From Bolinopsis microptera (Eukaryota > Ctenophora > Tentaculata > Lobata > Bolinopsidae), in contig NC_087076.1 in the NCBI RefSeq assembly GCF_026151205.1, positions 877,692 through 939,691 of the forward strand: a DNA stretch of 62,000 bases, written 5' to 3'. Made by a program: the position numbers and the translations under genes. This document shows, one piece after another, positions 1,915 to 59,710 of this stretch. The notes beneath the pieces were generated by a model that saw only the letters and a program-made list of their open reading frames with translations, was not told the DNA's origin and searched no databases. The stretch's first letter is position 1. Every line of letters starts with the position of its first letter.

Positions 1915-3024
1915 ATCCCCATCCTTGTTCAGAGTGGTTGTACTGTTTCAGGAACACAGGGTGTGATAATTGTTGTTTAACCCCTCCTTGTGAGGTGTAC
2001 TGTACAGGGTATGATATTGTTGTTATCCTCTTGTTGAGGTGTATGTACAGGGTGTGATCATGGTTGGTTAACCCCTCCTTGTTCAGGTGGTACTTACAGG
2101 GTGTGTTATTGTGTTAACACCTCCTTGTTCAGGTTTATGTACAGGTGTGATAATTGTTGTTTAACCTCTCCTGTTCAGGGTGTACTGTACAGGGTGTGAT
2201 ATTGTTGTTTTAACCCTCCTTGTCCTGGTGTACTGTACAGGGTGTGATATTGTTGAACCCCCTCCTTGTTCAGGTGTACTGTACAGGGTGTGATATTGTT
2301 GTTAACCCCTCCTTGTTCAGGTGTACTGTACAGGGTGTGATATTGTTGTTAACCCCTCCTTGTTCAGGTGTACTGTACAGGGTGTGATATTGTTGTTAAC
2401 CCCTCCTTGTTCAGGTGTACTGTACAGGGTGTGATATTGTTGTTAACCCCTCCTTGTTCAGGTGTACTGTACAGGGTGTGATATTGTTGTTAACCCCTCC
2501 TTGTTCAGGTGTACTGTACAGGGTGTGATATTGTTGTTAACCCCTCCTTGTTCAGGTGTACTGTACAGGGTGTGATATTGTTGTTAACCCCTCCTTGTTC
2601 AGGTGTACTGTACAGGGTGTGATATTGTTGTTAACCCCTCCTTGTTCAGGTGTACTGTACAGGGTGTGATATTGTTGTTAACCCCTCCTTGTTCAGGTGT
2701 ACTGTACAGGGTGTGATATTGTTGTTAACCCCTCCTTGTTCAGGTGTACTGTACAGGGTGTGATATTGTTGTTAACCCCTCCTTGTTCAGGTGTACTGTA
2801 CAGGGTGTGATATTGTTGTTAACCCCTCCTTGTCAGGTGTACTGTACAGGGTGTGATATTGTTGTTAACCCCTCCTTGTTCAGGTGTACTGTACAGGGTG
2901 TGATATTGTTGCTAACCCCTCCTTGTTCAGGTGTACTGTACAGGGTGTGATATTGTTGTTAACCCCTCCTTGTTCAGGTGTACTGTACAGGGTGTGATAT
3001 TGTTGTTAACCCCTCCTTGTCCAG
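1915..3024 (+). repeat. 47-bp minisatellite containing a 3' splice site and exon start
   Basis: More than 20 tandem copies; the left third is degenerate and the right two thirds almost perfect. Each unit reads GTGTACTGTACAGGGTGTGA, then TATTGTTGT, then TAACCCCTCCTTGTTCAG. The first 29 nt are identical to the first 29 nt of the DMXL exon that starts at 3025, and the last 18 nt are a good branch-point, polypyrimidine tract and AG acceptor. Every unit therefore carries the acceptor plus the exon edge. The unit is not a multiple of three. Confidence 0.92.
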
Positions 3025-6000
3025 GTGTACTGTACAGGGTGTGATATTGTTGTACTAGACGATGCGTTTCACAGAGTACAGCTTATAAGCAACATTAGCG
3101 GCTGCAGATCTCAGATAACAGCTATCACACTGTGTCCGCTATCTGGCAGGGTCAGTTACTTTTACACTCTTTTATTGACATGTCTCAATATTTAAATAAA
3201 TGTAGTGAAGTTGAGAAGCTTTGACTGTTCCATGTTTTCTCGTATTCAATTGCAAATAATTTAGAATCATTTAAAATACATTAATAAATACACAGATAAT
3301 AGATTAAGTTGGAATAATAACTTACACACCTGCCATCAGATCGGTGCTGTTTCGTCCCATTCAGTGTACATTCTATCAGCTCAGTCTTCAGTAGATGATG
3401 ATGTAAGTAATGGCCTATAATATTTGAATATTGAGGTACTTCAGGAGTTCAAATAGTTTTATTTCATAGAGTGTTTATATTATATTATCAGGTATTACAG
3501 TCCTCATAAGATGCGAATAAAATATATGTGTTTCCCATCTTGTCCAGCAAGTGTTGATCATATTCGCTTCTTTGAAATGTAAAAGTGTACAAAAACCAGG
3601 ATATAGATTATATTTTCCCGTTTCTCAGATTATAACATTCCAGGAATACCCCTACACGTGGAGTGTATCGTACACACTATCTATAGGGTCACGTGTAGCG
3701 TGTGCTACATTCAATAACGATGGAAGTGAGCTTATAGTGACGGGCACTGAGCTTCTTATCTACAGAACTGCAGATTGGAAGTGCGCCTGGAGTACCCAGT
3801 AAGTGTGGGGAGCGTTAAAAGGGTTACCAAGTGCTTATGCTTTGTTCTGTGTGTTTCTGTGTGTTACTGTGTGTTTCTGTATGTTTTCATACAAATGGGA
3901 ATAAAAGCAATTTAAGTTAACCCTGTATAATCCTAGTTTGACAGAAGAAACCAGCCAAGTAACTGTTTCTCCAGACGGCAGATTCTTTACAACCCTGTCC
4001 CGGAACTCTAAAGTTATAAAACTATGGAAGAAGATGAAAGGTACGGGAACAATTTTCAAAATAGCCAGGGAGGCAATGTATTCTCAATATTTGTGACACG
4101 CCTCCATTTATGGCACGCTTGCCCCCATCTATATCTGACGGCTCAATTCTCGATAAGCCAGAATAAGATAGGATAGGGTAGAATAATACTGGTAATAGGA
4201 CGGTAATAGGCAATTTAAAAGTGGCCGTGCCAGAAAAACCGAGAGTAAATACTCTGGAGGTATGCGGAAAACGGTCTACAGATGATGGTTGCAGGAATGC
4301 GCGGAGATGTTTATAATTAGTTGGTCGCGCGCACGTCACTTCATATTTTAAATTATGCAGCTCTATCAGATAAAAACGCCGTGAATTGTTATTTACATCT
4401 GCCATCTAGCCATTACATTTGATGTTGAGTGAGAAGACCGATAAGAAATTAGCTGTCACATTGAGTAATGTTGTCACGATAGAAAATGATGTTTTTCAGG
4501 AGGCAAGGATTACAGGAGTGAACTGATTCTGCATCCTGACGTTGTTATCGGAGCTTGTTGGCGGGCTGTCTCTCCTGAGCTCCCTGTGTAAGTTGTGAGT
4601 GTGTGTGAGTGTGGGGGGGGTGGGGTAGGGGAAAGCAAATCACGTGATTTCTAACATATATAAGTGATAACGTTTACAATAAGTATGCGAACTCTTTATG
4701 TTTTGCTAACGACCCTCATTTCCAGTGACTCAGTGAGACAAGTCCTCTTGACATCCTGTCACGACTGTATCGGGAGGATCTGGCTGGAGGCTCCAAGTGT
4801 TCATCCCTCTATTTCTGCTAGACATTCTATTACCAAGTCATTCGTGCTAGGTACTTTCTAGCTCATCTACATGTATTTCTATGGTTAATTAGGTTGAGTG
4901 CGAGTATTAGAGGTGATGATTAACGGTAATGAGTTATTTACTGAAATTGAAACACTCTCCAGGCACTGTGTTGGACCCATTAAAGGAGTCAACTGAAAAG
5001 AAGATTGAAGGATCTCCCTACATATTCCAATGGTTCAACAACAAAGCGCATTCTTACAGGTTATAGTCCAGTACATTCTTACAGGTTCCTTCTAGGTATT
5101 CCTTTCTTTCTAGAAACTTCCTAACTCCGCAACTAACACATCTGCTCATTTCCTCACTCTGCAACTAACACATCTGCTCACTTCCTCACTCCGCAACTAA
5201 CACATCTGCTCACTTCCTCACTCCGCAACTAACACATCTGTTCACTTCCTTACTCCGCAACTAACACATCTGCTCACTTCCTTACTCCGCAACTAACACA
5301 TCTGCTCACTTCCTTACTCCGCAACAAGTCTAACACATCTGCTCACTTCCTCACTCCGCAACTAACACATCTGCTCACTTCCTTACTCCGCAACTAACAC
5401 ATCTGCTCACTTCCCTACTCCGCAACAAGTCTAACACATCTGCTCACTTCAACATGTTTCAGTGTTTGTTTGGAGAACGCCCGGCTGAAAGGGGAGCTGA
5501 TGCTCTCTGAAGGATTGTCCGTCAGTTCCTACGATATTGCAGAGGAGGAGGACTTTGTTGTGTCTGACACTGACCAGCCTAATGTGCCGATAAAGAAGGA
5601 GATGTTGGAGCTGAAGATGGGAAAAGTCAAGGACATGAGAGAATACCAATACACTGAGTCTCAACTTCTCAAATACTGGTACAAGGTTAGTGACCATTTT
5701 ATTCTCAAAAGCCGTCTTATTTTTATATTTTTAAAAATATTTAACGTCCAACAATGGCGTTTCTCTTGTCGCTAATAGCTTCTCAGTTTGAATAATATTC
5801 CCCTCAGAGTTTCGACATGGTTGTTTGCGTGAGCCCTGCTACCGGCTCCTTTATGGGGTGGAGAGTTGAGAAGATTGATGTGGCTTACCCTTTTCAGGCG
5901 CTCACTACTAGATTCGTCCTTAAACTGCCTTGGTTAGTGCTTGAAATGGGGGCCGGGGTGGGGGTATATTGAAATAGAAATTGTTATCAATAACTACTTC

Positions 6001-9000
6001 AGTTGATGCATCGTTTAAAAAAACGAATAATATTATGCGTTGTTACCAACGTACGTAGTAAGTGTTCATTTGACCCGTTCTTAAATCAGAAACAATAACT
6101 ATCAGAAATAGAAATACCATTAGCACATTAAAAAACATGAAGATATATTACATCTAAATCTTCACCCAAGAAAATAAAGAGGAATCAATTACACGAGAAT
6201 CTGTTCAACAAAAATCATTAAAAACATCATGCAAAATAGTTGAAATCTTTGGAAAGATTTGTAAATTTAAAAAAGGTTGTAGCTTGTAATGCAAATATAA
6301 TTTTGACAAATGCAAAAAAAGTCGCGTGAAGCAGCCAAGTAAAAGAAAGTGTTATAAAGGTTTACCGACGCTACTCCAAATTGTTCGTTCTTAATTTTAA
6401 CAATTTGAGAGAAAAAAGTTAGTTTCCAGAATCTCTATTTAATTTTTGTCACCAAAAGGCCGAAGTAACATAAACCGCCACAGCCAGAGTAAAATAGTCA
6501 AACCAATTCCAGAGCTAATGAGTATGATTTAACAAGCTCGGCGGCCCGGAGTACGGTTAGTAGTGCGGATGCGTTGCTGTTTAGCCTGGTTGAAAGTAGA
6601 GTTGTGAGTCTTCCAAGCGTTTTTAGGGGTACTGGCTCTCCCGGCTGTAGCTGCAGCTTGGTGTTGTAGCAGCACCTCCTCTAGACTTAGCTTAGGTTTC
6701 TTAACGTGGTTTAACACGTTACTTCTCTCAGCAACTACAGTTTCCTGGGATAAATTTGTATTATAACCTTGCCTTGGGGATAAACAGTGCGCAGATCGCT
6801 ATTTATGCTAGAATCACAAATCTTCGATTTTTTCCATGGTGAAAGTTTTTTGCTATTTTCTCCGAAGATAAAATACAATGCATAATGCTGCCACTTGGCC
6901 TCTACTTTACTTGGCCTCTACTTTACTTGGCCTCTACTTTACTTGGCCTCTACTTTACTTGTCCTCTACTTTACTTGCCCTCTACTTTACTTGCCCTCTA
7001 CTTTACTTGCCCTCTAGTTTACTTGCCCTCTACTTTACTTGCCCTCTACTTTACTTGCCCTCTACTTTACTTGCCCTCTACTTTACTTGTCCTCTACTTT
7101 ACTTGCCCTCTACTTTACTTGCACTCTACTTTACTTGCCCTCTACTTTACTTGCCCTCTACTTTACTTGCCCTCTACTTTACTTGTCCTCTACTTTACTT
7201 GTCCTCTACTTTACTTGTCCTCTACTTTACTTGCCCTCTACTTTACTTGCCCTCTAGTTTACTTGCCCTCTACTTTACTTGCCCTCTACTTTACTTGCCC
7301 TCTACTTTACTTGCCCTCTACTTTACTTGCCCTCTACTTTACTTGTCCTCTACTTTACTTGCCCTCTACTTTACTTGTCCTCTACTTTACTTGCCCTCTA
7401 GTTTACTTGCCCTCTACTTAACTTGCCCTCTACTTTACTTGCCCTCTACTTTACTTGTCCTCTACTTTACTTGCCCTCTACTTTACTTGCCCTCTACTTT
7501 ACTTGCCCTCTACTTTACTTGCCCTCTACTTTACTTGCCCTCTACTTTACTTGCCCTCTACTTTACTTGCCCTCTACTTTACTTGCCCTCTACTTTACTT
7601 GCCCTCTACTTTACTTGCCCTCTAGTTTACTTGCCCTCTACTTTACTTGCCCTCTACTTTACTTGTCCTCTACTTTACTTGCCCTCTACTTTACTTGCCC
7701 TCTACTTTACTTGCCCTCTACTTTACTTGTCCTCTACTTTACTTGCCCTCTACTTTACTTGCCCTCTACTTTACTTGGCCTCTACTTTAAGTACCTGCAT
7801 GACGGGGTCTGGTGACTTGATATCTTCTACCACCACATTTTTTACCACCACATTTTCTACCACCACATCTTCTGTCCCCTTTGCCTTCTGGGATTGGTGG
7901 TATTAGTTATAATGAATTATATGGAAATGGGACGACTAAACCAGATGCTGAGATACTTTTTCCTTTACCCTAGCTGAACTTTAGTAATAATTCACCTGTT
8001 GTATAGTGTATATTGTATAATGTATATTGTATAGTGTATATTGTATAGTGTATATTGTATAGTGGGGGGGGGCCAATGGCATAAATGGAGAAAATGGAGA
8101 ATTACTCATAGGTTTTTCCATTTTCTCCATAGAAATAGTCTCCATTTTATGCCATTTTATGCCATTTTATGCCATTGAAAACCTGAAAAATTTAGAATTT
8201 CGAGAAAAATTATTTAAAAAAAAGATATTTTCGGCCAATAATGAACAGAGTATCATGAAACATGGAGAAAAGTGGTTTTCAGAAAGACTTTGAAAAATGT
8301 TGACTTAGAAAATTTTCGGTCCGAGTCATTTTCGATACGTACATCCCGTATCGAGAGCTCCCGATTCCGAGCTCGTGTTGCAAAGGGGAGGCCTGCCTTC
8401 CGAGATCGCATTACCTCGAGTCCAAAATTGTGTATCGAGGGGAAAAAAATATTTTCGGCAAATAATGAACAGGGTAGCATGAAACGTGGAGAAAAGTGTT
8501 TTTCAGAAAAACTTTGAAAAATTTTGACTAAGAAAATTACCCCTCGGTACACAATTTTGGACTCGAGGCTTCCCCCTGGTAATGCGATCTCGGAAGGCAG
8601 GCCTCCCCTTTGCAACACGAGCTCGGAATCGGGAACTCTCGATACGAGAGGAACGTATCGAGAATGGCTCGGGCCGAAAATTTCCTAAGTCAAAATGTTT
8701 CAAAGTTTTTCTAAAAACCACTTTTCTCCACGTTTTATGCTACCCTCTTCATTATTAGCCGAAAATATTTTTTTGGTTTTTCGGTTTATCGAAGTCTGCA
8801 CCTACCCCTCGATAGTCGATACACAAATTTGGACTCGAGGCTTCCCCCTGGTAATGCGATCTCGGAAGGCAGGCCTCCCCTTTGCAGTGCGAGCTTGTTT
8901 CGACTTTCGAGGATGTAGGTCTCACTTCTCAGTGCCTATTACTCTCCCCTATTACTCACTCCTGCTGTAGCCTGTAGAAATAACTTTACACTAGGCTTGA

Positions 9001-39650: not shown

Positions 39651-39782
39651 AATAGTCCTGTTTTTTAGTGCTGTGGTTATTTGAATCTTCACATATATTA
39701 CTGGTCCCCAGGTAACACATATAGTGCTCCGTTTTCTTATGCATATCCAGCATTTTTAATTTTCGATCTGCCCAACTGTACC

Positions 39783-44300: not shown

Positions 44301-47300
44301 CTTCTATATTATATAGTGTAAATATTAAATAGTGTATAGTGTATAATGTATAGTGTATAGTGTATAGTGTATTATATACCTGTTATTAGAGCTGCTGCCC
44401 ACACTAGCTAACACAGAAGCAGAGCCCAGGAAGGCAAAGTCTCTAGTAGCCCTGTCGTGGCAGTTGAGTACACAGTACGGTGTCAGAGAGCTGACTGTCG
44501 TGTGCCACAACCCTATCCCTCCGTTTGTATCTGGGAGTGGCACATTTGTATTATAGACCTTTTCTACTTTCCTATCAGCAGTAGTGTTTGGTGGGGGGGG
44601 GGGGGGGGCAGCAGTGTTTGGTGGGGGGGGGGGGGGGGCAGCAGTGTCTGATGAGGGGGGCAGCAGTGTCTGGTGAGGGGGGGGGGGGCAGCAGTGTTTG
44701 GTGGGGGGGGGGGGGGGGGCAGCAGTGTCTGGTGAGGGGGGGGGGGGCAGCAGTGTTTGGTGGGGGGGGGGGGGGGGGGCAGCAGTGTTTGGTGGGGGGG
44801 GGGGGGGGGGCAGCAGTGTTTGGTGGGGGGGGGGGGGGCAGGCAGCAGTGTCTGGTGAGGGGGGGGGGGGGGGCGCAGGGTCTGGCGAGGGGGGCAGCAG
44901 TGTCTGGTGAGGGGGGGAGGGCGAAGTGTCTGGTGAGGGGGGGGGGGGCAGCAGTGTCTGGTGGGAGGGGGGGGGGCAGCAGTGTTTGATGGGGGGGGGG
45001 GGGGGTGCAGTGTCTGGTGGGGGGGGGGGGGGGGCAGCAGTGTCTGGTTTACCTGACAGTCCGAACTTAGCCCCCAGAGGACCGAATCTGACACTGGTTA
45101 CGCGACCTCTAGTGCCACTGAGACCGTACTTCGCCAGGTGGTGAGGGTAACCAAACTCCCACAGCTTCACGTATCTGAAACAGACAGTCAAGGTACAACA
45201 GCACTGAGCAGAGGTAGCAACTACCAAACAAGGATAAAGATGAGAGGAATGAGAAGTGTGTGGGCAGTGTAGTGTATAGTGTATAGTGTATAGTGTGTAT
45301 AGTGTGTATAGTGTACAGTTTACTGACCCGTCAGTGTTGCCGGTAAGGTAGAGAGGTAGTTCACTGTGGGCAGTGGAGCACCTTACTCCGGACTCCTGGC
45401 GCTTCAGGAGCTGAAATCAGTCCGCTTTAGTAACCTGTAGTCTCTCTCTCTCTCTACAGGTACAGAGAGAGAGAGAGAGAGAGAGAGAACCTGTAGTAAT
45501 CACAGGATTCATATAACTGTTCACAATTCAGAAACATTTTAGTCTCAATAAATCTAGGTAAAAACCTGGTTAAAAACTTCAACGTGACTGTCGGAGCTGA
45601 TCGACGACTGTTCTGATATATGATGATTTTTTCTTGGCTTGTTGTCATCATTCGAAACTGAAAAGAATCACGTTTTAACCTCATCTTCTGTCATAATGAA
45701 ATAAAAGATATCCTTGTGTTTGAAGCACAAGCAATCCACGTGGTTACTAAGGTTACTAACGTGGTTACTAAGGTTACTAACACGTGGTTACTAAGGTTAC
45801 TAACGTGGTTACTAAGGTTACTAACACGTGGTTACTAAGGTTACTAAGGTGGTTACTAAGGTTACTAAGGTGGTTACTAAGGTTACTAACTGATAACAAA
45901 GGGCGAGTTGTTCCCCTCCTCGTTTCCCTCCTCCTTCACTCCTCTGTCTCTATCTAGACAGGTCTTCACATCTATCTCTAGAATCTCTCTGAGTGTTGTT
46001 ACCACCATCATGTTCACTCGGTTCTGTAAGACAGCTAACTTAATATCACTAATCATCACTAATCATCACTAATCATCACTAATCATCACTAATCATCACT
46101 AATCATCGCATTCCTGGAGGGGACACATTCCTGGAGGGGACACATTAGGGGGGGGGGGGGGCAGCAGTGTGTCCCACATCACCACATTCCTGGGGGGACA
46201 TATTAGGGGGGGGGGGGGGCAGCAGTGTGTCCCATATCACCACATTCCTGGGGGGACATATTAGGGGGGGGGCAGCAGTGTGTCCCATATCACCACATTC
46301 CTGGGGGGGGGGGGGGGGGGGGGGGGGACACATTAGGGGGGGGGGGGGGGGCAGCAGTGTGTCCCATATCACCACATTCCTGGAGGGGACACATTAGGGG
46401 GGGGGGGGTGCAGTGTGTCCCATATCACCACATTCCTGGGGGGGGACACATTAGGGGGGGGGGGGCAGCAGTGTGTCCCATATCACCACATTCCTGGAGG
46501 GGACACATTAGGGGGGGGGGGGGGGTGGGCAGTAGTGTGTCCCATATCACCACATTCCTGGGGGGGATACATTAGGGGGGGGGGGTAGCAGTGTGTCCCA
46601 TATCACCGCATTCCTGGAGGGGACACATTAGGGGGGGCACATTAGGGGGGGGGGGGGGGGGGGTAGCAATGTGTCCCATATCACCGCATTCCTGGGGGGG
46701 ACACATTAGGGGGGGGGGGGGGGGGGGCAGCAGTGTGTCCCATATCACCACATTCCTGGAGGGGACACATTAGGGGGGGGGGGGCAGCAGTGTGTCCCAT
46801 ATCACCACATTCCTGGGGGGACATATTAGTAATCATCACTAATCATCACTAATCATCACTAATCATCACTAATCATCACTAATCATCACTAATCATCACT
46901 AATCATCACTAATCATCACTAATCATAACTAATCATAACTAATCATCACTAATCATCACTAATCATCACTAATCATCACTAATCATCACTAATCATAACT
47001 AATTATCACTAATCATCACTAATCATCACTAATCATCACTAATCATCACTAATTATTACTTGTGCCCGATTCAATCCTAGTATAAACTGATCTAGCAAGC
47101 ACAACCTTAATTCCATATTAACCTATATATAATAATATATCGTTTTATTTTTCATTTCTAGTAATTCACAGCTATAAAAGGGACAAAACTCTTGAGATCT
47201 GTCACTCAGAACTTGATACATCAATTATCAAATACAATTCTATTAAAGTCTCTGTTTTCGTATTGTTTGAAGACAAGAGCCATAAAGTATATTCTCTTGA

Positions 47301-50300
47301 GAAAGTTTATGTGTATTGTGTCAGTCGGTCTGTTGGTTTATTCGTCTGTTCATTGTCAGCATGTCGGTCTAATTTCACATTTCATCGTCAGATTCAGATG
47401 TCAAATAAGATAAAATATCTTCAAAGAACGACTTTCGTCGCACCCTTTTCTTCGCTACCTGTCAAAATGCAGATTAATGACATGCTGCAAGAGGAGGAGC
47501 GAGTTAAATATCTTATATCTTATTACTTTACTCCTAGTACCTGGTAGCAGGAGAAGGAGGAGACCCCGTCTGTTCCTCTAAAAGCGGTCCTAACTCCGTG
47601 AGAACAAGGCTCCTCTCCTAACACCTGGTAGAGTAAGGGTCAGGTGTAAATATACAGCAGCTTAACATACAAAATGGTCATAACTCAGCCAAATTTTGAG
47701 CAATGAACTTGAAACTTTGGGAACGGTTTTAAATTAGCAAGCCAAATGTGTGAAAAAAATTGTGAGTTCTTAGCTTAAAGCGTTCTCATTTTATGAAGAC
47801 AATAGTGAAAAAGAGGGAGTGCCACGCCACGCCCACTGTAATTGGGCGTGGCTTACAAAACTTTCAGGAAATCTAAGTTTGACCCATATGTATAATCTCT
47901 GAAATTTTGGTGCAATTTGGAGACGAATTACGTGAGTTATTAAGAAGTTAAGAGGTTGCGTAGTCACTTTTGGGCCACCCTGTATAAACAGTCAGATGTA
48001 ACCAACACCAGCTTAACATTATCCTGTCTAACTGAAGAAGAACAATTTTTACCTCTGGTTCTTTAGTCTGCAGATAGTCGGTTATCGGTGTCTCTGTTGC
48101 CAGTTTGTGCCACAACATCCTAGCTTGCAATGACGTCTGAAACAAAAATATAAATGTCAAATACTCACATTTAAGAACAGACATATAGAAGAAGTGAAAG
48201 TATTGATGCAGACAGCAGGACCCCCCCCCCCCCCCCCCCCATACAGAACTATATTGCTAACGGTACCGCGACAATTGACCCCTCGACAATTGACCCCCCG
48301 ACAATTGACCCCCCGACAGGGTCAGGTTCAGGGTTAGGGTTAGGGTCCTGGGTCAGGGTCAGGCCCTGGCCCTGGACCTTGACCCTGATCAGGGTCAAGG
48401 TCAGGGTCAGGGTCAGGGTCAGGGTCAGGGTCAGGGTCAGGGTCAGGGTCAGGGTCAGGGTCAGGGTCAGGGTCAGGGTCAGGGTTAATTGTATTAAATT
48501 ATATTGTCGGGGGGTCAATTGTCGGGGGGTCAATTGTCGGGGGTCAATTGTCGGGGGGTCAATTGTCGTATACTAAGTCCTAGATTTCGCGACAATTGAT
48601 CCCAGTGTAATTACATAGGGGGTCAATTGTCGGGGGGTCAATCGTCGGGGGGTCAATTGTCGGGGGGGGGGGGGGGGGGTCAATTGTCGGGGGTCAATTG
48701 TCGGGGGTCAATTTTCGGGGGGTCAATTTTCGGGGGGTAATTGTCAGAAGGTCAATTGTCGGGGGGTCAATTGTCGGGGGTCAATTGTCGGGGGGTCAAT
48801 TGTCGGGGGGTCAATTTTCGGGGGGTCAATTGTCGGGGGTTCAATCGTCGGGGGGTCAATTGTCGGGGGGGTCAATTGTCGGGGTCAATTTTCGGGGGGG
48901 TCAATTGTCGGGGGGTCAATTGTCGCCCACCCATCGCTGACCTGAGTGTGCTGTCTGAAAGGAGAGCAGTTAGGTTCCGCAAGACTCTGCTGTAAGGAGT
49001 AGCCAGGTGCTAACGGAGGAAGCAAGTCAGAGGGACATCCCTCAGGGTAAGCTCCTTCTAGTTGTTCTAGAAGGTTCTCCGCCCACCCGTCCAGAGTCTT
49101 CATACTGCACGCTAGCAAGGGGGACATCCCTGCTAAATCTACGGAGGTGCGTATTTTTAGAAATGCATAATCATTCGTATTTGCCAAATCTGACCGATTG
49201 AGATTATTCTACATGGGCAAGTCTTGCCGAGAATTTAACACAAAATCTGTCTACATCGAGACTCAAGCGAAAAGAATAGTAACCTGAGGGAATGATGCCG
49301 ATATCGGTTAAGAAGGAAAGTATCTTGTCCTGGACGTGTATTACAGACATGAGTCTCATGAGGCGCCAGCTGTAGCAACTGTAATCCTCTGGATCATCCC
49401 CTTCATCGTCCAGCGTCTCCTAGCAACGTTATTTTACATTTTATATCTTAACATTATTCTACAGCGTCTCCTAGTAACGTTATTTTACATTTTATATCTT
49501 AACATTATTCTACAGCGTCTCCTAGCAACGTTATTTTACATTTTATATCTTAAAATTATTCTACAGCGTCTCCTAGCAACGTTATTTTACATTTTATATC
49601 TTAACATTATTCTACAGCGTATCCTAGCAACGTTATTTTACATTTTATATCTTAACATTATTCTACAGCGTCTCCTAGCAACGTTATTTTACATTTTATA
49701 TCTTAACAATATTCTACAGTGTCTCCTAGTAACGTTATTTTACATTTTATATCTTAACATTATTCTACAACGTCTCCTAGCAACGTTATTTTACATTTTA
49801 TATCTTAACATTATTCTACAGCGTCTCCTAGCAACGTTATTTTACATTTTATATCTTAACATTATTCTACAGCGTCTCCTAGCAACGTTATTTTACATTT
49901 TATATCTTAAAATTATTCTACAGCGTATCCTAGCAACGTTATTTTACATTTTATATCTTAAAATTACTCTAAAACGTCTCCTAGCAACGTTATTTTACAT
50001 TTTATATCTTAACATTATTCTACAGCGTCTCCTAGCAACGTTATTTTACATTTTATATCTTAAAATTACTCTAAAACGTCTCCTAGCAACGTTATTTTAC
50101 ATTTTATATCTTAACATTATTCTAAAGCGTCTCCTAGCAACGTTATTTTACATTTTATATCGTAACATTATTCTACAGCGTATCCTAGCAACGTTATTTT
50201 ACATTTTATATCTTAACATTATTCTACAGCGTATCCTAGCAACGTTATTTTACATTTTATAACTTAACATTATTCTACAGCGTCTACTAGCAACGTTATT

Positions 50301-53300
50301 TTACATTTTATATCTTAACATTATTCTACAGCGTCTCCTAGCAAAGTTATTTTACATTTTATATCGTAACATTATTCTACAGCGTATCCTAGCAACGTTA
50401 TTTTACATTTTATATCTTAACATTATTCTACAGCGTCTCCTAGCAACGTTATTTTACATTTTATATCTTAACATTATTCTACAGCGTATCCTAGCAACGT
50501 TATTTTACATTTTATATCTTAACATTATTCTACAGCGTCTCCTAGCAACGTTATTTTACATTTTATATATTTTATATCTTAACATCTTACTACCTTATCG
50601 GACCTTATTTGGACGGACATTACATGAACGGACATATATATAATATATAATATATATATATATAATAATTATGAACGGACATTAATATGAACGCTCGAAG
50701 GCATTCAAAACCATCAAAAATCCGAATTTTTTTCAATTTTTTTGACGTTTTTTCAATTTCAGCAAATGATTTTTGAATCCATTTTTTATACAGTAAGTAA
50801 GGAAAGCAGTCATTGAGCAGTAAAAATGTTAAAATATATGTACATGATCAGTGTCTAATATCACATATCATCTTCATCAAATGGGGTTTCGTGCATGAAA
50901 TAGTCCATGCTTAAAGCATCAGTGATTTCTAGCTTTATCAAACTACCCCGGTCCTGCATTTCAGTGTTAACTTTTACAATCCATTCGGCGTGAAGTGGTT
51001 TTATCATAGACAACTTTAGGTTAACCTTAACATCACGTGGAGCTTTCCTAGCACTGTTCCATTACCGCCCCCGAGTAATATGAACTATAACAACGTCGGA
51101 AAATGTCCTTGGAAACACGATTTACCGTAATATCTAGAGGCTGGAACAAGTTTGTCATGTTGGCGGGGACTAGTTCATGAACTATGTTGTTGAGTGCCAT
51201 AATTTCGTTGACTTTTTTCCGCCAAGTCATGACCCTTGAAAACATCATATACTAGTAGAGTTTTCTGTGCCTCCGGCAGACCAAGGAGAAACTTTCCATC
51301 GTTAACTTACGGCACAATAAAGTTCTCAAAGTTGTCATACATCATATTCTGGACAAAAAGTTCGAAATATGGAAAAATTTTAACGGACTTTAACTTGGAC
51401 GGACATTAATTGAACGGACTTTATTTGAACGGACATTAAGATGAACGCTAGGGCCTCCAGCGTTCAAGTAATGTCCGTCCAAATAAGGTCCGATAAGGTA
51501 TATATAAAGCGAGACGATATTCTACCAGACCCAATTGAAAACCCTTGAGCGTTATGGGGGTATGAACACCCTCGATAGTAACCACATCCTTTTTAAATCC
51601 GCTGGAGCTTAGTGTTTAGTTTATTTATTTTATTTAACATGATCTTAGCCTATAAACCCGTGTTTAGTTTACAATATTGCTATCAGAGACGTGTTATATT
51701 CATTACTATTTAATTATTTTTACTGTTTGATTCAGAGAAATCTAGCTTTTTCCGAGAAACTAATTTTTAATAGATTAGATAAGATGTACTCAGCCATTCT
51801 TTTCGTTTGATTATTACTCAGTATGTTTTAGTTTTGTACCGTTTTAAGTCACATAGTTTTGTACGTCTTCCTAAGATTTGTTTTCCTTTCCTAGTTTGTA
51901 AGTTATTTTAAAGATTTGTGTATATTCCAGTTGCTTTTAAAACAATTTTATCTCAGATAACGATGTTTAATAAATGATGCAAAGAATTTCGAAGATCTAA
52001 TCAACACCGAATTTTAATGTGTAGGAGTACAGCAACGAAATATATATATATATATCTGTTACCATTTAACTGATACCACGACTTCAAGTTTAACAAGACT
52101 TTCTGCAAAACCCGTGGGAGATATACTTTTGAAATTTTTTTGGCTGGGTCGAATGAATTTATGGCCTTTTGGTCAGTATTATGGCCAAGGAATAAATTAT
52201 TTATGTCCCGAAAATGGATCCAAAACTTTTCGTTTTGTTAATATTTCTGCTGTGAGCTTCCTCCGACCCAAATCAAACTTCCAGCACCTCAATCGTGTCA
52301 TTTGCCATCTATAGTTGACTGACTAATTGATTTCGGGTCAGAAATTCGGTCAAAACTGTAAAATTTCGGCCCTGGAAATTTCAGCTTCAAAAACTGAAAA
52401 TGGGACAGAGTATGGGACAGTATGAATTTCCACTTTTTTTCGAGATTTCGACTTCCAGTACCCCAATTTGGTTTCATACCATCATCAATTAACTGACTAA
52501 TTGGTTTTTGAGCAAAAATTTCATCCAATCTGTCAAATGTGTCATCAGAAATGTTCATATCTGAAAATGGGACAGACTTTTGAAAATACAACTTTTCGTT
52601 TTGTTAAACTTTCTGCTGTCAGCTTCCTCCGACCCAAATCAAACTTCCAGCACCTCAATCGTGTCATTTGCCATCTATAGTTGACTGACTAATTGGTTGC
52701 GGGTCAGAAATTCGGTCAAAACTGTAAAATTTCGGCCCTGGAAATTTCAGCTTCAAAAACTGAAAATGGGACAGAGTATGGGACAGTATGATTTTCCACT
52801 TTTTTTTCGAGATTTCGACTTCCAGTACCCCAATTTGGTTTCATACCATCATCAATTAACTGACTAATTGGTTTCTGAGCAAAAATTTCATCCAATCTGT
52901 CAAATGTGTCATCAGAAATGTTCATATCTGAAAATGGGACAGACTTTTGAAAATACTACTTTTCTTTTTGTTAAACTTTCTGCTGTCAGCTTCCTCCGAC
53001 CCAAATCAAACTTCCAGCACCTCAATCGTGTCATTTGCCATCTATAGTTGACTGACTAATTGGTTGCGGGTCAGAAATTTGATCAAAACTGTTAAATTTC
53101 GGCCCTGGAAATTTCTTCTTCAAAAACTGAAAATGGGACAGTATGATTTTCCAATTTTTTTCGAGATTTCGACTTCCAGTACCCCAATTTGTTCATACCA
53201 TCATCAATTAACTGACTAATTGGTTTCTGGGAAAAAATTTCATCCAATCTGTCAAATGTGTGATCAGAAATGTTCATATCTGAAAATGGGACAGACTTTT

Positions 53301-53843
53301 GAAAATACAACTTTTCGTTTTGTTAAACTTACTGCTATCAACTTCCTCCGACCCAAATCAAACTTCCAGCACCTCAATCGTGTCAATTGCCATCTATAGT
53401 TGACTGACTAATTGGTTGCGGGTCAGAAATTCGGTCAAAACTGTAAAATTTCGGCCCTGGAAATTTCAGCTTCAAAAACTGAAAATGGGACAGAGTATGG
53501 GACAGTATGATTTTCCAATTTTTTCGAGATTTCGACTTCCAGTACCCCAATTTGGTTTCATACCATCATCAATTAACTGACTAATTGGTTTATTTTTTGG
53601 GAGATTTTCAGCAAGATCAGATTTCCAAAGAAATGGGAACAAAGTATAATAAAAAGGGTAGCTCTTTAAAACAATGCTGAACTGAAACGGTAGCTAACCT
53701 CACAGTCGCTATCAACTTCAAACATGTTGGAAGTATCAAGATGTTGCTCTCTGTTGAAGAACTCGACCAGTGACATGCAGGGTGGTAAGAAGGTCTCCCT
53801 CACCGTCACAACACCCTCTTGAGAGATACGAGGTCCTTTCACT
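41347..53843 (-). CDS. DMXL: DmX-like protein (rabconnectin-3 alpha), C-terminal region with WD40 repeats, partial
   Basis: Thirteen exons: 53843-53699, 49419-49284, 49138-48942, 48136-48053, 46038-45891, 45657-45566, 45410-45328, 45174-45053, 44530-44380, 42808-42621, 42450-42368, 42058-41953, 41438-41347. All borders are GT-AG, every phase agrees, and together they give 542 residues plus stop. Matches to human DMXL1/2 include SPLLACSMKTLDGW, ARMLWHKL, LYLTGNTDGYVKLWEFG, CHDRATRDFAF, VVIWDTLLPP, LISAGSKGDVCIFDVRQRKL, DEEQYFTGSSEGDIK and the end LVSCGADGEVKIRL. These are the C-terminal WD40 blades of the V-ATPase regulator. The start of exon 46038 is uncertain (46023 is an alternative), and a small exon between it and 48053 may be missed. 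The preceding exon lies right of the window. Nearly every intron edge carries a minisatellite. Confidence 0.9.
41391..41836 (-). repeat. 45-bp minisatellite carrying the last acceptor and exon start
   Basis: About ten copies (42-47 bp). In gene sense the unit is GAGTGATGAAGCTTCAGGTA followed by GACTCGACTAACCACCTTGTTTCAG. The first 36 nt match the start of the final DMXL exon (GVMKLQVDSTNHLVS), where the last copy reads TTTCCTGT instead of TTTCAG. Each unit therefore has an acceptor and exon edge. It also contains CAG|GTAGAC, so every copy is bounded by donor- and acceptor-like sequences. 45 bp keeps the frame; some copies carry a 2-bp insertion. Confidence 0.9.
42075..42262 (-). repeat. CACTATA-type array before an acceptor
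   Basis: TATAGTGTATAGTG and TGTAGTG units on the plus strand. In gene sense it reads CACTATAC and ends about 17 nt before the acceptor at 42059-42060. Confidence 0.85.
42292..42373 (-). repeat. Two-copy 43-bp duplication containing a splice donor
   Basis: The exon end ATCAAG with donor GTAACATTGTGC at 42368/42367 is repeated 43 bp into the intron (ATCAAG|GTAAC at 42325/42324) with the intervening sequence TACTTTCCCAT and TTAGCGTGTA. It is a minimal two-copy junction duplication. Confidence 0.85.
42811..44213 (-). repeat. About 58-bp minisatellite carrying an acceptor and 34 nt of exon
   Basis: About 23 copies. In gene sense each has a C run, CCTAATGTGTCCCCTCCAG, then GAATGTGGTGATATGGGACA and CACTGCTGCC followed by a C run. 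The part after AG is the start of exon 42808-42621 (NVVIWDTLLPP). The C runs vary from about 9 to 20 nt, giving variable unit length. Open frames of up to 259 codons across it are repeat artefacts. Confidence 0.93.
44310..44378 (-). repeat. CACTATA-type array directly after a donor
   Basis: In gene sense the donor at 44379 reads GTATATAATACACTATACAC and continues as CACTATA units. Confidence 0.85.
44585..45050 (-). repeat. C-rich minisatellite starting at a donor
   Basis: About 17 copies of CAGACACTGCTGCC plus a C run and A. The array starts four bases after the donor of exon 45174-45053 (GTAAACCAGACACTGCTGCC), so the first copy overlaps the donor region. Variants have AAACACTG. It shares ACACTGCTGCCCCCC with the neighbouring array 42811-44213. 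Confidence 0.9.
45263..45316 (-). repeat. CACTATA-type array after a donor
   Basis: Gene-sense CACTATACACACTATAC units beginning about 12 nt after the donor at 45327. Confidence 0.8.
45440..45488. repeat. Inverted dinucleotide tract (TC)n and (GA)n
   Basis: TCTCTCTCTCTC and GAGAGAGAGAGA flank CTACAGGTACAG, forming a near-perfect hairpin framed by ACCTGTAGT copies. Confidence 0.8.
45735..45890 (-). repeat. Minisatellite of donor-like GTTAGTAACC units
   Basis: In gene sense the donor of exon 46038-45891 is GTTAGTAACC, and the array repeats GTTAGTAACCTTAGTAACCA-like units with CACGTG spacers. The donor-like GTTAGTAAC is thus present several times; the array starts at the donor itself. Confidence 0.85.
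46047..46107 (-). repeat. Decamer array AATCATCACT, exon-proximal part
   Basis: About six copies next to exon 46038-45891. In gene sense TGATGATTAG resembles the exon edge TGATATTAAG. The array is split by the insertion 46108-46826. Confidence 0.85.
46108..46826 (-). repeat. Ectopic copy of the 42.8-44.2 kb array
   Basis: Eleven units of the same repeat as 42811-44213 (TGTGTCCCATATCACCACAT with G runs), embedded in the decamer array of another intron. The acceptors within it point in the gene's direction, so they are potential decoy splice sites two introns upstream of the true exon. Confidence 0.9.
46827..47060 (-). repeat. Decamer array AATCATCACT, distal part
   Basis: About 23 copies with a few AATCATAACT and AATTATCACT variants; continuous with 46047-46107 apart from the inserted block. 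Confidence 0.9.
47061..48052. other. DMXL intron sequence, possible decayed element
   Basis: No clear exon, although a short DMXL exon may hide here. About 47640-47990 is unique noncoding sequence ending in GGGCCACCCTGTATAAAC; TACAGGGTGGCCC-type ends are typical of some DNA transposons, but no matching left end is evident. Confidence 0.35.
48222..48240. repeat. Poly-C tract
   Basis: Run of about 19 C beside the CAATTGTCG array. Confidence 0.9.
48265..48926 (-). repeat. CAATTGTCG array, copy 2, with (GGGTCA)n core
   Basis: Tandem GGGGTCAATTGTCG units (14-17 bp). An internal block of about 20 GGGTCA hexamers runs from about 48385 to 48485, and GGTTAGGGTTAGGG lies at 48332. In gene sense it starts about 13 nt after the donor at 48941. 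The unit TCAATTGTCGTATACTAAGT, with TCCTAGATTTCGCGACAATTG after it, is the inverse of the hairpin at 25.66 kb. Confidence 0.9.
49420..50577 (-). repeat. 51-bp minisatellite carrying an acceptor and 9 nt of exon
   Basis: About 23 copies. In gene sense each unit ends AATAACGTTGCTAG and the next begins GAGACGCTG, which are exactly the acceptor and first nine bases (ETL) of exon 49419-49284; then TAGAATAATGTTAAGATATA follows. 51 bp is 17 codons, but the unit contains a TAG in the exon frame, so copies cannot be translated through. Confidence 0.9.
50593..51498 (-). mobile_element. Degenerate pogo/Tigger-like DNA transposon
   Basis: The ends are about 38-bp inverted repeats (CCTTATCGGACCTTATTTGG..., right end inverted) flanked by TA on both sides, as expected for pogo/Tc1 insertions. 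A 66-codon frame at 51248-51048 (-) contains VHELVPANMTNLFQPLDITV and NRVSKDIFRR. This resembles the C-terminal part of DDE-superfamily transposases (pattern VPANxTxxxQPLDxxVN). The rest of the transposase is missing, so the copy is nonautonomous. Confidence 0.85.
51499..52219. other. Intron sequence, no feature seen
   Basis: AT-rich sequence in the DMXL intron between the pogo-like element and the 365-bp repeats; includes a short (TA)n at about 52042. Confidence 0.45.
52220..53592. repeat. 365-bp tandem repeat, just under four copies
   Basis: CGACCCAAATCAAACTTCC recurs at 52266, 52631, 52998 and 53350. Each unit contains two related halves with TTGACTGACTAATTGGTT-type sequence. A frame on the minus strand (NISDDTFDRLDEIFAQKPIS) is shared between copies but broken, so coding is unlikely. 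Confidence 0.9.
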
Positions 53844-53929: not shown

Positions 53930-56900
53930 GATCTACATACCTGATCCTCTCCCCCATCATAGAGATTAGAGACCCTCTTGTTAGGGGGTCTAGGAGAGTT
54001 AGTGTCTACATACCTGATCCTCTCCCCCATCATAGAGACCCTCTTGTTAGGGGGTCTAGGAGAGTTAGTGTCTACATACCTGATCCTCTCCCCCATCATA
54101 GAGACCCTCTTGTTAGGGGGTCTAGGAGAGTTGGTGTCTACATACCTGATCCTCTCTCCCATCATAGAGACCCTCTTGTTAGGGGGTCTAGGAGAGTTAG
54201 TGTCTACATACCTGATCCTCTCCCCCATCAAAGAGACCCTCTTGTTAGGGGGTCTAGGAGAGTTAGTGTCTACATACCTGATCCTCTCCCCCATCATAGA
54301 GACCCTCTTGTTAGGGGGTCTAGGAGAATTAGTGTCTACATACCTGATCCTCTCCCCCATCATAGAGACCCTCTTGTTAGGGGGTCTAGGAGAGTTAGTG
54401 TCTACATACCTGATCCTCTCCCCCATCATAGAGACCCTCTTGTTAGGGGGTCTAGGAGAGTTAGTGTCTACATACCTGATCCTCTCCCCCATCATAGAGA
54501 CCCTCTTGTTAGGGGGTCTAGGAGAGTTAGTGTCTACATACCTGATCCTCTCCCCCATCATAGAGACCCTCTTGTTAGGGGGTCTAGGAGAGTTAGTGTC
54601 TACATACCTGATCCTCTCCCCCATCATAGAGACCCTCTTGTTAGGGGGTCTAGGAGAGTTAGTGTCTACATACCTGATCCTCTCCCCCATCATAGAGACC
54701 CTCTTGTTAGGGGGTCTAGGAGAGTTAGTGTCTACATACCTGATCCTCTCCCCCATCATAGAGACCCTCTTGTTAGGGGGTCTAGGAGAGTTGGTGTCTA
54801 CATACCTGATCCTCTCCCCCATCATAGAGACCCTCTTGTTAGGGGGTCTAGAGAGTTAGTGTCTACATACCTGATCCTCTCCCCCATCATAGAGACCCTC
54901 TTGTTAGGGGGTCTAGGAGAGTTAGTGTCTACATACCTGATCCTCTCCCCCATCATAGAGACCCTCTTGTTAGGGGGTCTAGGAGAGTTAGTGTCTACAT
55001 ACCTGATCCTCTCCCCATCATAGAGACCCTCTTGTTAGGGGGTCTAGGAGAGTTAGTGTCTACATACCTGATCCTCTCCCCCATCATAGAGACCCTCTTG
55101 TTAGGGGGTCTAGGAGAGTTAGTGTCTACATACCTGATCCTCTCCCCCATCATAGAGACCCTCTTGTTAGGGGGTCTAGGAGAGTTAGTGTCTACATACC
55201 TGATCCTCTCCCCCATCATAGAGACCCTCTTGTTAGGGGGTCTAGGAGAGTTAGTGTCTACATACCTGATCCTCTCCCCCATCATAGAGACCCTCTTGTT
55301 AGGGGGTCTAGGAGAGTTAGTGTCTACATACCTGATCCTCTCCCCCATCATAGAGACCCTCTTGTTAGGGGGTCTAGGAGAGTTAGTGTCTACATACCTG
55401 ATCCTCTCCCCCATCATAGAGACCCTCTTGTTAGGGGGTCTAGGAGAGTTGGTGTCTACATACCTGATCCTCTCTCCCATCATAGAGACCCTCTTGTTAG
55501 GGGGTCTAGGAGAGTTAGTGTCTACATACCTGATCCTCTCCCCCATCATAGAGACCCTCTTGTTAGGGGGTCTAGGAGAGTTAGTGTCTACATACCTGAT
55601 CCTCTCCCCCATCATAGAGACCCTCTTGTTAGGGGGTCTAGGAGAGTTAGTGTCTACATACCTGATCCTCTCCCCCATCATAGAGACCCTCTTGTTAGGG
55701 GGTCTAGGAGAGTTAGTGTCTACATACCTGATCCTCTCCCCCATCATAGAGACCCTCTTGTTAGGGGGTCTAGGAGAGTTAGTGTCTACATACCTGATCC
55801 TCTCCCCCATCATAGAGACCCTCTTGTTAGGGGGTCTAGGAGAGTTAGTGTCTACATACCTGATCCTCTCCCCCATCATAGAGACCCTCTTGTTAGGGGG
55901 TCTAGGAGAGTTAGTGTCTACATACCTGATCCTCTCCCCCATCATAGAGACCCTCTTGTTAGGGGGTCTAGGAGAGTTAGTGTCTACATACCTGATCCTC
56001 TCCCCCATCATAGAGACCCTCTTGTTAGGGGGTCTAGGAGAGTTAGTGTCTACATACCTGATCCTCTCCCCCATCATAGAGACCCTCTTGTTAGGGGGTC
56101 TAGGAGAGTTAGTGTCTACATACCTGATCCTCTCCCCCATCATAGAGACCCTCTTGTTAGGGGGTCTAGGAGAGTTAGTGTCTACATACCTGATCCTCTC
56201 CCCCATCATAGAGACCCTCTTGTTAGGGGGTCTAGGAGAGTTAGTGTCTACATACCTGATCCTCTCCCCCATCATAGAGACCCTCTTGTTAGGGGGTCTA
56301 GGAGAGTTAGTGTCTACATACCTGATCCTCTCCCCCATCATAGAGACCCTCTTGTTAGGGGGTCTAGGAGAGTTAGTGTCTACATACCTGATCCTCTCCC
56401 CCATCATAGAGACCCTCTTGTTAGGGGGTCTAGGAGAGTTAGTGTCTACATACCTGATCCTCTCCCCCATCATAGAGACCCTCTTGTTAGGGGGTCTAGG
56501 AGAGTTAGTGTCTACATACCTGATCCTCTCCCCCATCATAGAGACCCTCTTGTTAGGGGGTCTAGGAGAGTTAGTGTCTACATACCTGATCCTCTCCCCC
56601 ATCATAGAGACCCTCTTGTTAGGGGGTCTAGGAGAGTTAGTGTCTACATACCTGATCCTCTCCCCCATCATAGAGACCCTCTTGTTAGGGGGTCTAGGAG
56701 AGTTAGTGTCTACATACCTGATCCTCTCCCCCATCATAGAGACCCTCTTGTTAGGGGGTCTAGGAGAGTTAGTGTCTACATACCTGATCCTCTCCCCCAT
56801 CATAGAGACCCTCTTGTTAGGGGGTCTAGGAGAGTTAGTGTCTACATACCTGATCCTCTCCCCCATCATAGAGACCCTCTTGTTAGGGGGTCTAGGAGAG

Positions 56901-59710
56901 TTAGTGTCTACATACCTGATCCTCTCCCCCATCATAGAGACCCTCTTGTTAGGGGGTCTAGGAGAGTTAGTGTCTACATACCTGATCCTCTCCCCCATCA
57001 TAGAGACCCTCTTGTTAGGGGGTCTAGGAGAGTTAGTGTCTACATACCTGATCCTCTCCCCCATCATAGAGACCCTCTTGTTAGGGGGTCTAGGAGAGTT
57101 AGTGTCTACATACCTGATCCTCTCCCCATCATAGAGACCCTCTTGTTAGGGGGTCTAGGAGAGTTAGTGTCTACATACCTGATCCTCTCCCCCATCATAG
57201 AGACCCTCTTGTTAGGGGGTCTAGGAGAGTTAGTGTCTACATACCTGATCCTCTCCCCCATCATAGAGACCCTCTTGTTAGGGGGTCTAGGAGAGTTAGT
57301 GTCTACATACCTGATCCTCTCCCCCATCATAGAGACCCTCTTGTTAGGGGGTCTAGGAGAGTTAGTGTCTACATACCTGATCCTCTCCCCCATCATAGAG
57401 ACCCTCTTGTTAGGGGGTCTAGGAGAGTTAGTGTCTACATACCTGATCCTCTCCCCCATCATAGAGACCCTCTTGTTAGGGGGTCTAGGAGAGTTAGTGT
57501 CTACATACCTGATCCTCTCCCCCATCATAGAGACCCTCTTGTTAGGGGGTCTAGGAGAGTTAGTGTCTACATACCTGATCCTCTCCCCCATCATAGAGAC
57601 CCTCTTGTTAGGGGGTCTAGGAGAGTTAGTGTCTACATACCTGATCCTCTCCCCCATCATAGAGACCCTCTTGTTAGGGGGTCTAGGAGAGTTAGTGTCT
57701 ACATACCTGATCCTCTCCCCCATCATAGAGACCCTCTTGTTAGGGGGTCTAGGAGAGTTAGTGTCTACATACCTGATCCTCTCCCCCATCATAGAGACCC
57801 TCTTGTTAGGGGGTCTAGGAGAGTTAGTGTCTACATACCTGATCCTCTCCCCCATCATAGAGACCCTCTTGTTAGGGGGTCTAGGAGAGTTAGTGTCTAC
57901 ATACCTGATCCTCTCCCCCATCATAGAGACCCTCTTGTTAGGGGGTCTAGGAGAGTTAGTGTCTACATACCTGATCCTCTCCCCCATCATAGAGACCCTC
58001 TTGTTAGGGGGTCTAGGAGAGTTAGTGTCTACATACCTGATCCTCTCCCCCATCATAGAGACCCTCTTGTTAGGGGGTCTAGGAGAGTTAGTGTCTACAT
58101 ACCTGATCCTCTCCCCCATCATAGAGACCCTCTTGTTAGGGGGTCTAGGAGAGTTAGTGTCTACATACCTGATCCTCTCCCCCATCATAGAGACCCTCTT
58201 GTTAGGGGGTCTAGGAGAGTTAGTGTCTACATACCTGATCCTCTCCCCATCATAGAGACCCTCTTGTTAGGGGGTCTAGGAGAGTTAGTGTCTACATACC
58301 TGATCCTCTCCCCCATCATAGAGACCCTCTTGTTAGGGGGTCTAGGAGAGTTAGTGTCTACATACCTGATCCTCTCCCCCATCATAGAGACCCTCTTGTT
58401 AGGGGGTCTAGGTGAGTTAGTGTCTACATACCTGATCCTCTCTCCCATCATAGAGACCCTCTTGTTAGGGGGTCTAGGAGAGTTAGTGTCTACATACCTG
58501 ATCCTCTCCCCCATCATAGAGACCCTCTTGTTAGGGGGTCTAGGAGAGTTAGTGTCTACATACCTGATCCTCTCCCCCATCATAGAGACCCTCTTGTTAG
58601 GGGGTCTAGGAGAGTTAGTGTCTACATACCTGATCCTCTCCCCCATCATAGAGACCCTCTTGTTAGGGGGTCTAGGAGAGTTAGTGTCTACATACCTGAT
58701 CCTCTCCCCCATCATAGAGACCCTCTTGTTAGGGGGTCTAGGAGAGTTAGTGTCTACATACCTGATCCTCTCCCCCATCATAGAGACCCTCTTGTTAGGG
58801 GGTCTAGGAGAGTTAGTGTCTACATACCTGATCCTCTCCCCCATCATAGAGACCCTCTTGTTAGGGGGTCTAGGAGAGTTAGTGTCTACATACCTGATCC
58901 TCTCCCCCATCATAGAGACCCTCTTGTTAGGGGGTCTAGGAGAGTTGGTGTCTACATACCTGATCCTCTCCCCCATCATAGAGACCCTCTTGTTAGGGGG
59001 TCTAGGAGAGTTAGTGTCTACATACCTGATCCTCTCCCCCATCATAGAGACCCTCTTGTTAGGGGGTCTAGGAGAGTTAGTGTCTACATACCTGATCCTC
59101 TCCCCCATCATAGAGACCCTCTTGTTAGGGGGTCTAGGAGAGTTAGTGTCTACATACCTGATCCTCTCCCCCATCATAGAGACCCTCTTGTTAGGGGGTC
59201 TAGGAGAGTTAGTGTCTACATACCTGATCCTCTCCCCCATCATAGAGACCCTCTTGTTAGGGGGTCTAGGAGAGTTAGTGTCTATATACCTGATCCTCTC
59301 CCCCATCATAGAGACCCTCTTGTTAGGGGGTCTAGGAGAGTTAGTGTCTACATACCTGATCCTCTCCCCCATCATAGAGACCCTCTTGTTAGGGGGTCTA
59401 GGAGCGTTAGTGTCTACATACCTGATCCTCTCCCCCATCATAGAGACCCTCTTGTTAGGGGGTCTAGGAGAGTTAGTGTCTACATACCTGATCCTCTCCC
59501 CCATCATAGAGACCCTCTTGTTAGGGGGTCTAGGAGAGTTAGTGTCTACATACCTGATCCTCTCCCCCATCATAGAGACCCTCTTGTTAGGGGGTCTAGG
59601 AGAGTTAGTGTCTACATGATACCTGATCCTCTCCCCCATCATAGAGACCCTCTTGTTAGGGGGTCTAGGAGAGTTAGTGTTTACATGATACCTGATCCTC
59701 TCCCCCATCG
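53930..59710 (-). repeat. 66-bp minisatellite carrying a donor and 50 nt of exon
   Basis: About 87 near-identical copies. In gene sense: CCCCCTAACAAGAGGGTCTC, TATGATGGGGGAGAGGATCAG, then GTATGTAGACACTAACTCTCCTAG in separate pieces. The unit encodes PNKRVSMMGERIR up to a consensus donor ATCAG|GTATGT. Phase 2 at that donor fits the next exon (53843) exactly. The 24 nt from GTATGT end in CTAAC plus CTCCTAG, which looks like a miniature GT-AG intron; the unit is 22 codons, or 14 if the 24 nt were removed. Several copies lack one base. The array resumes at the right window edge. Confidence 0.93.

Follow-up and report, generated by a model that had tools for sequence, protein, structure and literature searches.

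The window analysed here is a stretch of 62,000 nucleotides from the genome of the ctenophore Bolinopsis microptera, located 0.88 to 0.94 Mb from one end of chromosome C5, and it harbors parts of a DMXL/Rav1 gene. We found that in this gene, and in other genes of the same genome, the repeat unit of many minisatellite arrays is a splice site together with the adjoining edge of the exon. These boundary-spanning stretches are present in two to about a hundred copies and extend into the intron. Boundary-spanning minisatellites are known from amphioxus under the name of mirages, and we consider it highly probable that the arrays described here are minisatellites of the mirage type, which arise by duplication across splice sites and then grow.

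Junction-spanning arrays in the DMXL gene

All five arrays of the original prediction, in which the unit was said to hold a splice site plus exon bases, were recovered by Tandem Repeats Finder (TRF) close to the predicted positions, and their exon edges lie in frame. For counting, the window was extended with the neighbouring stretch L001 to a joined length of 71.8 kb, of which arrays cover 37%. On the plus strand, an acceptor array with a 47-bp unit (1956 to 3053) repeats the end of an intron together with the first 29 nt of the exon at 3025. Three acceptor arrays on the minus strand have units of 45 bp with 43 nt of the last exon, x (41396 to 41830; first exon base 41438), of about 59 bp with 34 nt of exon v (42775 to 44208; exon at 42808-42621; 21 copies by pattern), and of 51 bp with 9 nt of exon l (49411 to 50568; exon at 49419-49284). 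The fifth, also on the minus strand, is a donor array with a 66-bp unit, which copies the exon end ...GTCTCTATGATGGGGGAGAGGATCAG and then continues with gtatgtagacac.... It had been predicted to occupy 53930 to 59710, and the array is present there (53967-59709 by TRF), but it does not stop at 59710. This block is the intron-distal one; it is followed by about 2.3 kb of other repeats, after which the array resumes in an exon-proximal block (L001 78-1054), almost wholly outside the window, that ends in exon j at L001 1054.

The exon part of the unit runs for 29, 43, 34, 9 and 53 nt in the five arrays before the first mismatch. Junction words, consisting of the exon edge and its splice site with at most one mismatch, occur 17, 9, 35, 20 and 100 times in the joined 71.8 kb, and none of them was found on the opposite strand of the same sequence. 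The number of arrays, given as at least five, proved to be higher: junction-spanning duplications are present on 11 of the 65 splice-site sides of the gene, counted over 8 plus-strand and 25 minus-strand exons. They affect the acceptors of the exon at 3025 and of exons b, h, l, v and x, and the donors at 5059 and of exons b, f, j and w; exon b is flanked by arrays at both ends. The duplication at exon w (42286 to 42373, minus strand; exon at 42450-42368) has two copies of a 43-bp unit with 6 nt of the exon and was found by TRF. Two others were missed by TRF and found by reading, namely that of exon h, with two copies and a short array between them, and that at 5059, with one and a half copies on the plus strand (5049 to 5087; 25-bp unit, 11 nt of exon, second copy partial with 14 nt). 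At exons b and j, the copies at the edge of the array differ from the homogenised inner copies.

With a second pattern for the exon-v unit, 32 copies were counted. Of these, 21 belong to the array itself, and the remaining 11 form a displaced block in a different intron of the gene, at 46.2-46.8 kb (46109 to 46829, minus strand). This block lies about 2 to 4 kb from its source array and was either moved or copied.

Across all loci the units are about 8 to 72 bp long, the lengths being nominal for the arrays of exons b, f and v and of KIN_C12a, whose units vary. The units are unrelated to each other: over 253 pairs among 24 units, the best local score was 14, versus 12 for shuffled units. This agrees with the earlier proposal of a recurring process rather than one repeat family. 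False tandem copies made during assembly might also be suspected, as the window contains a 100-N gap and the join of exons a and b has a one-base frame mismatch at a C run. Diverged variants are present in most arrays tested, and many loci, on different chromosomes, have distinct units, so we regard an assembly artefact as highly improbable, although exact copy numbers may still be wrong.

Origin of the arrays

A likely view of the birth of an array is given by two copies of one myosin-like gene on chromosome C11 (L035 and L036), which are mutually inverted, lie about 145 kb apart, and are either paralogues or unmerged haplotypes. Their matching blocks are 91 to 98% alike, and the exon adjoining the junction is identical over 64 bases. 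The acceptor junction is present once in L035 and three times in L036. In L035, the 10-bp sequence CAACTATTTC occurs in the intron and again in the exon, 69 bp apart, bracketing the stretch that is multiplied in L036, where the later units are 3 bases longer (72 bp). Judged from the sequences, this pair is what would be expected before and after a duplication between short direct repeats.

Breakpoints were compared in 12 arrays, which were picked for readable ends and whose ends were set by hand. Direct repeats of at least 3 nt were present in 8 of the 12, versus 5.5% of random cut pairs across such junctions; examples are TGTAGA in the 66-bp array and TTTC in the 45-bp array. The repeat at L037 was counted as 3 nt, having been entered one base off, and is otherwise 5 nt, above the threshold both ways. 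The other 4 of the 12 clean arrays have a repeat of only 1 or 2 nt, which counts against the explanation given below. The breakpoint repeats point to microhomology-mediated duplication, and they lend support to the slippage or repair that had been proposed as the seed of the arrays.

As the exon edges are conserved and in frame, the direction was from exon to array. An opposite order, in which the minisatellite was in the intron beforehand and the exon border later shifted into it, would likewise make unit and exon edge identical. Against this, the residues encoded by the exon parts look conserved, and in L035 the exon is present with just one junction; such exonisation is therefore hardly credible to us.

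A course of events consistent with these observations would begin with a short direct repeat whose two arms, about 20 to 70 bp apart, by chance flank a splice site, one arm being exonic and the other intronic. The stretch between the arms, splice site included, is then doubled, as the L035/L036 pair and the direct repeats at other arrays show; the presumed mechanism is slippage or microhomology-mediated repair. The duplicate would lie on the intron side, so that the exon-proximal splice site would still give the old mRNA and selection would tolerate the change. The continuous frame and the conservation of the exons suggest that this site is indeed still usable, in agreement with the original prediction, which named tolerance by selection as the reason why arrays persist. 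The array would presumably grow to its 2 to about 100 copies by the usual instability of minisatellites.

Occurrence in other genes

The 13 large scaffolds of the B. microptera assembly hold 258.07 of 264.65 Mb (97.5%). The same genome was searched for four families, chaperonin (CCT), myosin, kinesin and dynein, with 46, 83, 136 and 87 exon matches listed, respectively (352 in total). From these listed matches, 228 were entered in the survey and 227 lay in stretches examined. Genes were picked without sight of arrays, but the choice of kinesins and dyneins depended on how far they lie from chromosome ends, and long introns were part of the reason for taking three interior kinesins. A kinase search was left unused because most matches lay in one open frame.

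A tandem array overlapped the exon match by at least 6 bp in 14 of the 227 cases, and 11 of these proved on reading to be truly spanning, in CCT/myosin, kinesin and dynein genes. The overlaps at KIN_C12b, L053 and L031 were rejected, the arrays being abutting or intronic. Three more spanning arrays were found outside the survey (L036, L066 and the donor at KIN_C13int). The possibility that the phenomenon is limited to the window was rejected, as kinesins near chromosome ends showed arrays at once. When the strongly conserved CCT and myosin genes were taken alone, no true junction word recurred in its own intron among 82 kept introns (34 of 116 dropped); a hit at L027 was set aside as a locus-edge artefact, and one at L031 lay in a doubtful intron. 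This null result was a sampling effect because the filter had removed L037 and L035/L036.

Spanning arrays were present at 4 of 27 exon matches within 1.05 Mb of a chromosome end, at 1 of 33 between 1.05 and 3 Mb, and at 6 of 167 farther in (4/27 near the end versus 7/200 for the rest, Fisher P 0.03). TRF arrays covered on average 0.40 of the 5 regions that lie less than 1.05 Mb from an end, compared with 0.043 of the 43 other regions (P 0.003). In our sample, the arrays are thus densest within about 1 Mb of chromosome ends. Three points weaken the end effect: rank correlation over the 48 regions gave no graded telomere effect (P 0.26), the near-end set comprises 5 regions including the array-free L052, and the cut-off of 1.05 Mb was chosen after the first data had been seen.

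Preference for splice junctions

It had also been claimed that the process acts at splice junctions. We compared the arrays with a null model in which each array was collapsed to one unit and placed uniformly, and the frequency of junction spanning was computed. Introns were those of the DMXL gene and the calls of a spliced aligner, with flank scores of at least 8 for CCT and myosin and at least 1 for kinesin; L035/L036 were excluded, and dyneins are absent for want of a reference protein. Twelve intron calls were set aside as spurious, one of which (L031 131-1335) was well scored but array-free, and two introns were added by hand (L037 1905-2932 and KIN_C7int 551-8951).

For 75 arrays in 161 introns, 17 spanning arrays were observed versus 7.2 expected (P about 1e-4). 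Outside the DMXL gene the numbers were 10 versus 3.3 (P 6e-4), and in the interior set 6 versus 1.7 (P 0.002). Junctions are spanned 2.4 to 3.6 times more often than under uniform placement. Arrays internal to introns are GC-rich (0.486 versus 0.364). With adjustment for composition, 5.0 spanning arrays are expected over all introns versus the 17 observed, and 2.7 versus 9 when the DMXL gene and the hand-added L037 are left out (P 0.002). A GC bias was therefore rejected as the cause of the junction excess for the whole set.

Several results weaken the case for a junction preference. Single subsets give less contrast, with 7 versus 3.9 for the DMXL gene (P 0.049), 7 versus 3.6 for the same gene after the adjustment (P 0.08), and 4 versus 1.6 for kinesins near chromosome ends (P 0.063). 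A replication on eight kinesin loci not looked at before yielded just 2 arrays among the 32 introns kept (12 of 44 dropped), 1 of them spanning with 0.4 expected. The median array-free intron is 180 bp, and a length of 165 bp for every intron raises the expectation to 14.5 spanning arrays versus the 17 observed.

The last result is what would be predicted if tolerance alone were at work, that is, if duplication were uniform, those altering the protein were lost, and spanning were common simply since introns were short (about 165 bp) relative to the long units, with no process specific to junctions. At this length, 29.3 near-or-spanning arrays are also expected versus 32 observed, and in introns below 200 bp the spanning arrays number 5 versus 4.8 expected. 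On the other hand, longer introns depart from this picture, with 4 versus 0.9 at 200 to 500 bp and 8 versus 1.5 at 500 bp or more. Even below 200 bp, the arrays spanning a junction or within 12 nt of it number 19 versus 9.6 expected. Moreover, some arrays look young, with 22 identical copies at L037 and 13 copies with 100% match at exon b, and much of the intron is then probably older than the array, which speaks for a real junction preference. Considering both sides, it is quite possible, though short of probable, that tolerance alone explains the arrays.

A junction preference is likely, and its reading hinges on the length of the introns at the time when the arrays arose. Because the excess vanishes with introns of about 165 bp, a junction-specific process is possible rather than proven. 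The original claim thus stood as regards the excess, within the DMXL gene and outside it, and failed to hold at the shorter intron length.

One process of this kind would be DNA damage coupled to splicing or transcription, in which R-loops or polymerase pausing at splice sites make junctions hot spots of duplication. The excess over all introns that base composition leaves unexplained is in line with it, as are the 21 near-or-spanning arrays at donors versus 11 at acceptors. The spanning arrays themselves, 10 at donors and 7 at acceptors, show no strong polarity, and we consider such coupled damage unlikely. A broader proposal is that junctions are true hot spots of minisatellite birth via a junction-linked process, which arose or was exposed independently of amphioxus, makes introns longer and splice sites more numerous, in this way continually supplies intron growth as well as new exons and introns, and is strongest near chromosome ends. 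We put this forward as a tentative idea that is open to considerable doubt.

Consequences for the mRNA

The original prediction assumed that any copy of the junction gives the same mRNA, and this assumption had to be given up. Copies other than the exon-adjacent one would insert whole units, so only the exon-proximal copy gives normal mRNA; among the 24 nominal unit lengths, 8 are divisible by 3, the share expected by chance.

This chance-level share also counts against the idea that the arrays are functional, either as alternative splice sites or as variable coding repeats, for example the 22-residue repeats that the 66-bp unit would encode. The 66-bp unit is open and in frame, and the variants among its 97 copies comprise 14 synonymous, 18 non-synonymous and 0 stop changes, versus 43, 150 and 5 possible ones. 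In seven arrays, splice dinucleotides are altered at 2 of 444 positions versus 171 of 11511 others. However, the copies share ancestry and are not independent, so neither count is a sound test, and homogenisation alone could account for the intact copies. We regard a function of the arrays as very unlikely, and as far as can be read from the copies themselves, the two counts may leave room for some use of internal ones.

The DMXL gene and its surroundings

The minus-strand gene was identified as DMXL/Rav1: just outside the window there is a Rav1p_C match (E 1.2e-77), and yeast Rav1 was the sole solved structure matched by the large exon (E 0.001). The DMXL part on the plus strand starts with the exon adjoining the 47-bp array (3025 to 3147; protein VYCTGCDIVVLDDAFHRVQL...), which we take to be the DMXL N-terminus from its family likeness. 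The minus-strand exons a to x were placed by anchors, and the joined translation served as the test of their borders. The frame is continuous across the joins b to c and f to p, and the donors of exons b, f and j as well as the acceptors of exons h and l are thereby fixed. Exon k (53699 to 53843, minus strand), downstream of the intron with the 66-bp array, continues the frame from exon j. Beyond exon p this layout no longer keeps the frame, some borders there being a few bases off, and for exons q to x the frame was read by eye; the borders of exons d and w2 are also off by a few bases, and the donor of p is uncertain. Exon v (protein NVVIWDTLLPP) and exon x (protein CGADGEVKIRLISDI) are both in frame with their neighbours by eye, look WD40-like, and resemble vertebrate DMXL. 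Where exon a joins exon b, a one-base frame mismatch occurs at the C run, which has six C in the exon-proximal copy and five in the other copies, so a homopolymer error is likely. Two further arrays on the minus strand abut a donor without spanning it, that of exon t (44578 to 45048) and that of exon q (45737 to 45890); both were placed from TRF and the exon layout.

The N-terminus of DMXL lies on the plus strand (3025-5935), and the remainder lies on the minus strand (71674 to 41350 in joined coordinates). Several DMXL genes had been assumed, whereas the pieces fit one gene and look like a single gene divided by an inversion or by a scaffolding error, i.e., a wrongly turned contig. The N-terminus was not seen by eye in the 6 kb of L063 upstream. 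The 100-N run at 18721-18820 is a candidate end of the inverted or wrongly turned piece. Heterozygous inversions are reported in a ctenophore (PMC8527503).

Some other features were observed. At 35525-39349, a 15-bp unit, GTAAGACTAATAAGA, is repeated over 3.8 kb with 95% match and a donor-like GTAAG in its consensus. An open frame on the plus strand at 39669-40157 has a lysine-rich stretch followed by a conserved-looking tail, and we take it to resemble small lysine-rich protein 1. On the minus strand of L063, at about 3900-5500, a reverse-transcriptase-like open stretch, presumably of the non-long-terminal-repeat type, lies between two blocks of a 19-bp tandem array. Among the myosin matches, L030 2813-3004 and 3056-3286 are adjacent copies of one exon, i.e., a tandem exon duplication. 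Two pairs of kinesin matches (C11:11.30/11.34 Mb and C13:4.98/5.07 Mb) are like L035/L036, being segmental duplications or unmerged haplotypes.

Significance and comparison with known systems

The question of how introns grow and originate is an old one. Datable cases in progress are provided by arrays in which a splice site is copied along with its exon edge, with the unduplicated gene copy as the likely ancestral state. Should junctions prove to be hot spots to a degree that tolerance cannot account for, gene architecture and DNA instability would be linked. The presence of mirages in a ctenophore would make them a general phenomenon, and research on splicing gains naturally occurring genes in which as many as about 100 donor sites are nearly identical.

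Introners (PMC9860276) likewise associate repeated DNA with introns; they copy themselves into many genes, whereas the units found here are unrelated between loci (24 units, 253 pairs). In the polyubiquitin gene UBC, dual-specific splice sites occur in tandem arrays (PMC10809524), and each tandem unit carries a splice-site motif, as here. The UBC units are coding and bounded by AGGT, whereas many of ours have no AG|GT where exon and intron meet, and few are divisible by 3 (8 of 24). Tandem genomic duplication of exon sequence containing AGGT can yield introns (PMC3443670). As in our arrays, the duplicated segment carries splice signals and the coding sequence can stay intact, but there a duplication within an exon makes a new intron, while here the edge of an existing intron is copied into the intron. 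At L035/L036, the sole case tested, the intron was not made by the duplication, as L035 has the intron with one junction.

The only work on boundary-spanning minisatellites that we found in the open literature is that on amphioxus (PMC3087553, PMC3902484), with no ctenophore report; subscription papers were hardly covered, so that absence from ctenophores is not established. The text of a paper on ctenophore chromatin (PMC12221973) contains neither "tandem" nor "minisatellite".

In amphioxus, minisatellites spanning exon/intron boundaries were described in globin genes and Adh3 and named "mirages"; reverse transcription PCR suggested normal splicing, and their length was unstable, also somatically (PMC3087553). 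The amphioxus arrays agree with ours in that the unit crosses the boundary with exon bases, both donor and acceptor boundaries are hit (here 10 and 7), the sequence and length of the unit vary between loci, many copies retain AG/GT, and edge copies deviate from homogenised inner ones. As regards copy number, L036 has 3 copies here and L035 has 1. The host there is a cephalochordate and here a ctenophore, and the globin case has 6 copies versus up to about 100 here. In addition, our arrays are denser near chromosome ends, and their frequency, junction excess and breakpoint repeats have been counted. The kind of element is thus already published for amphioxus, while the ctenophore host, the counts and the before-and-after pair are new as far as our literature searches show.

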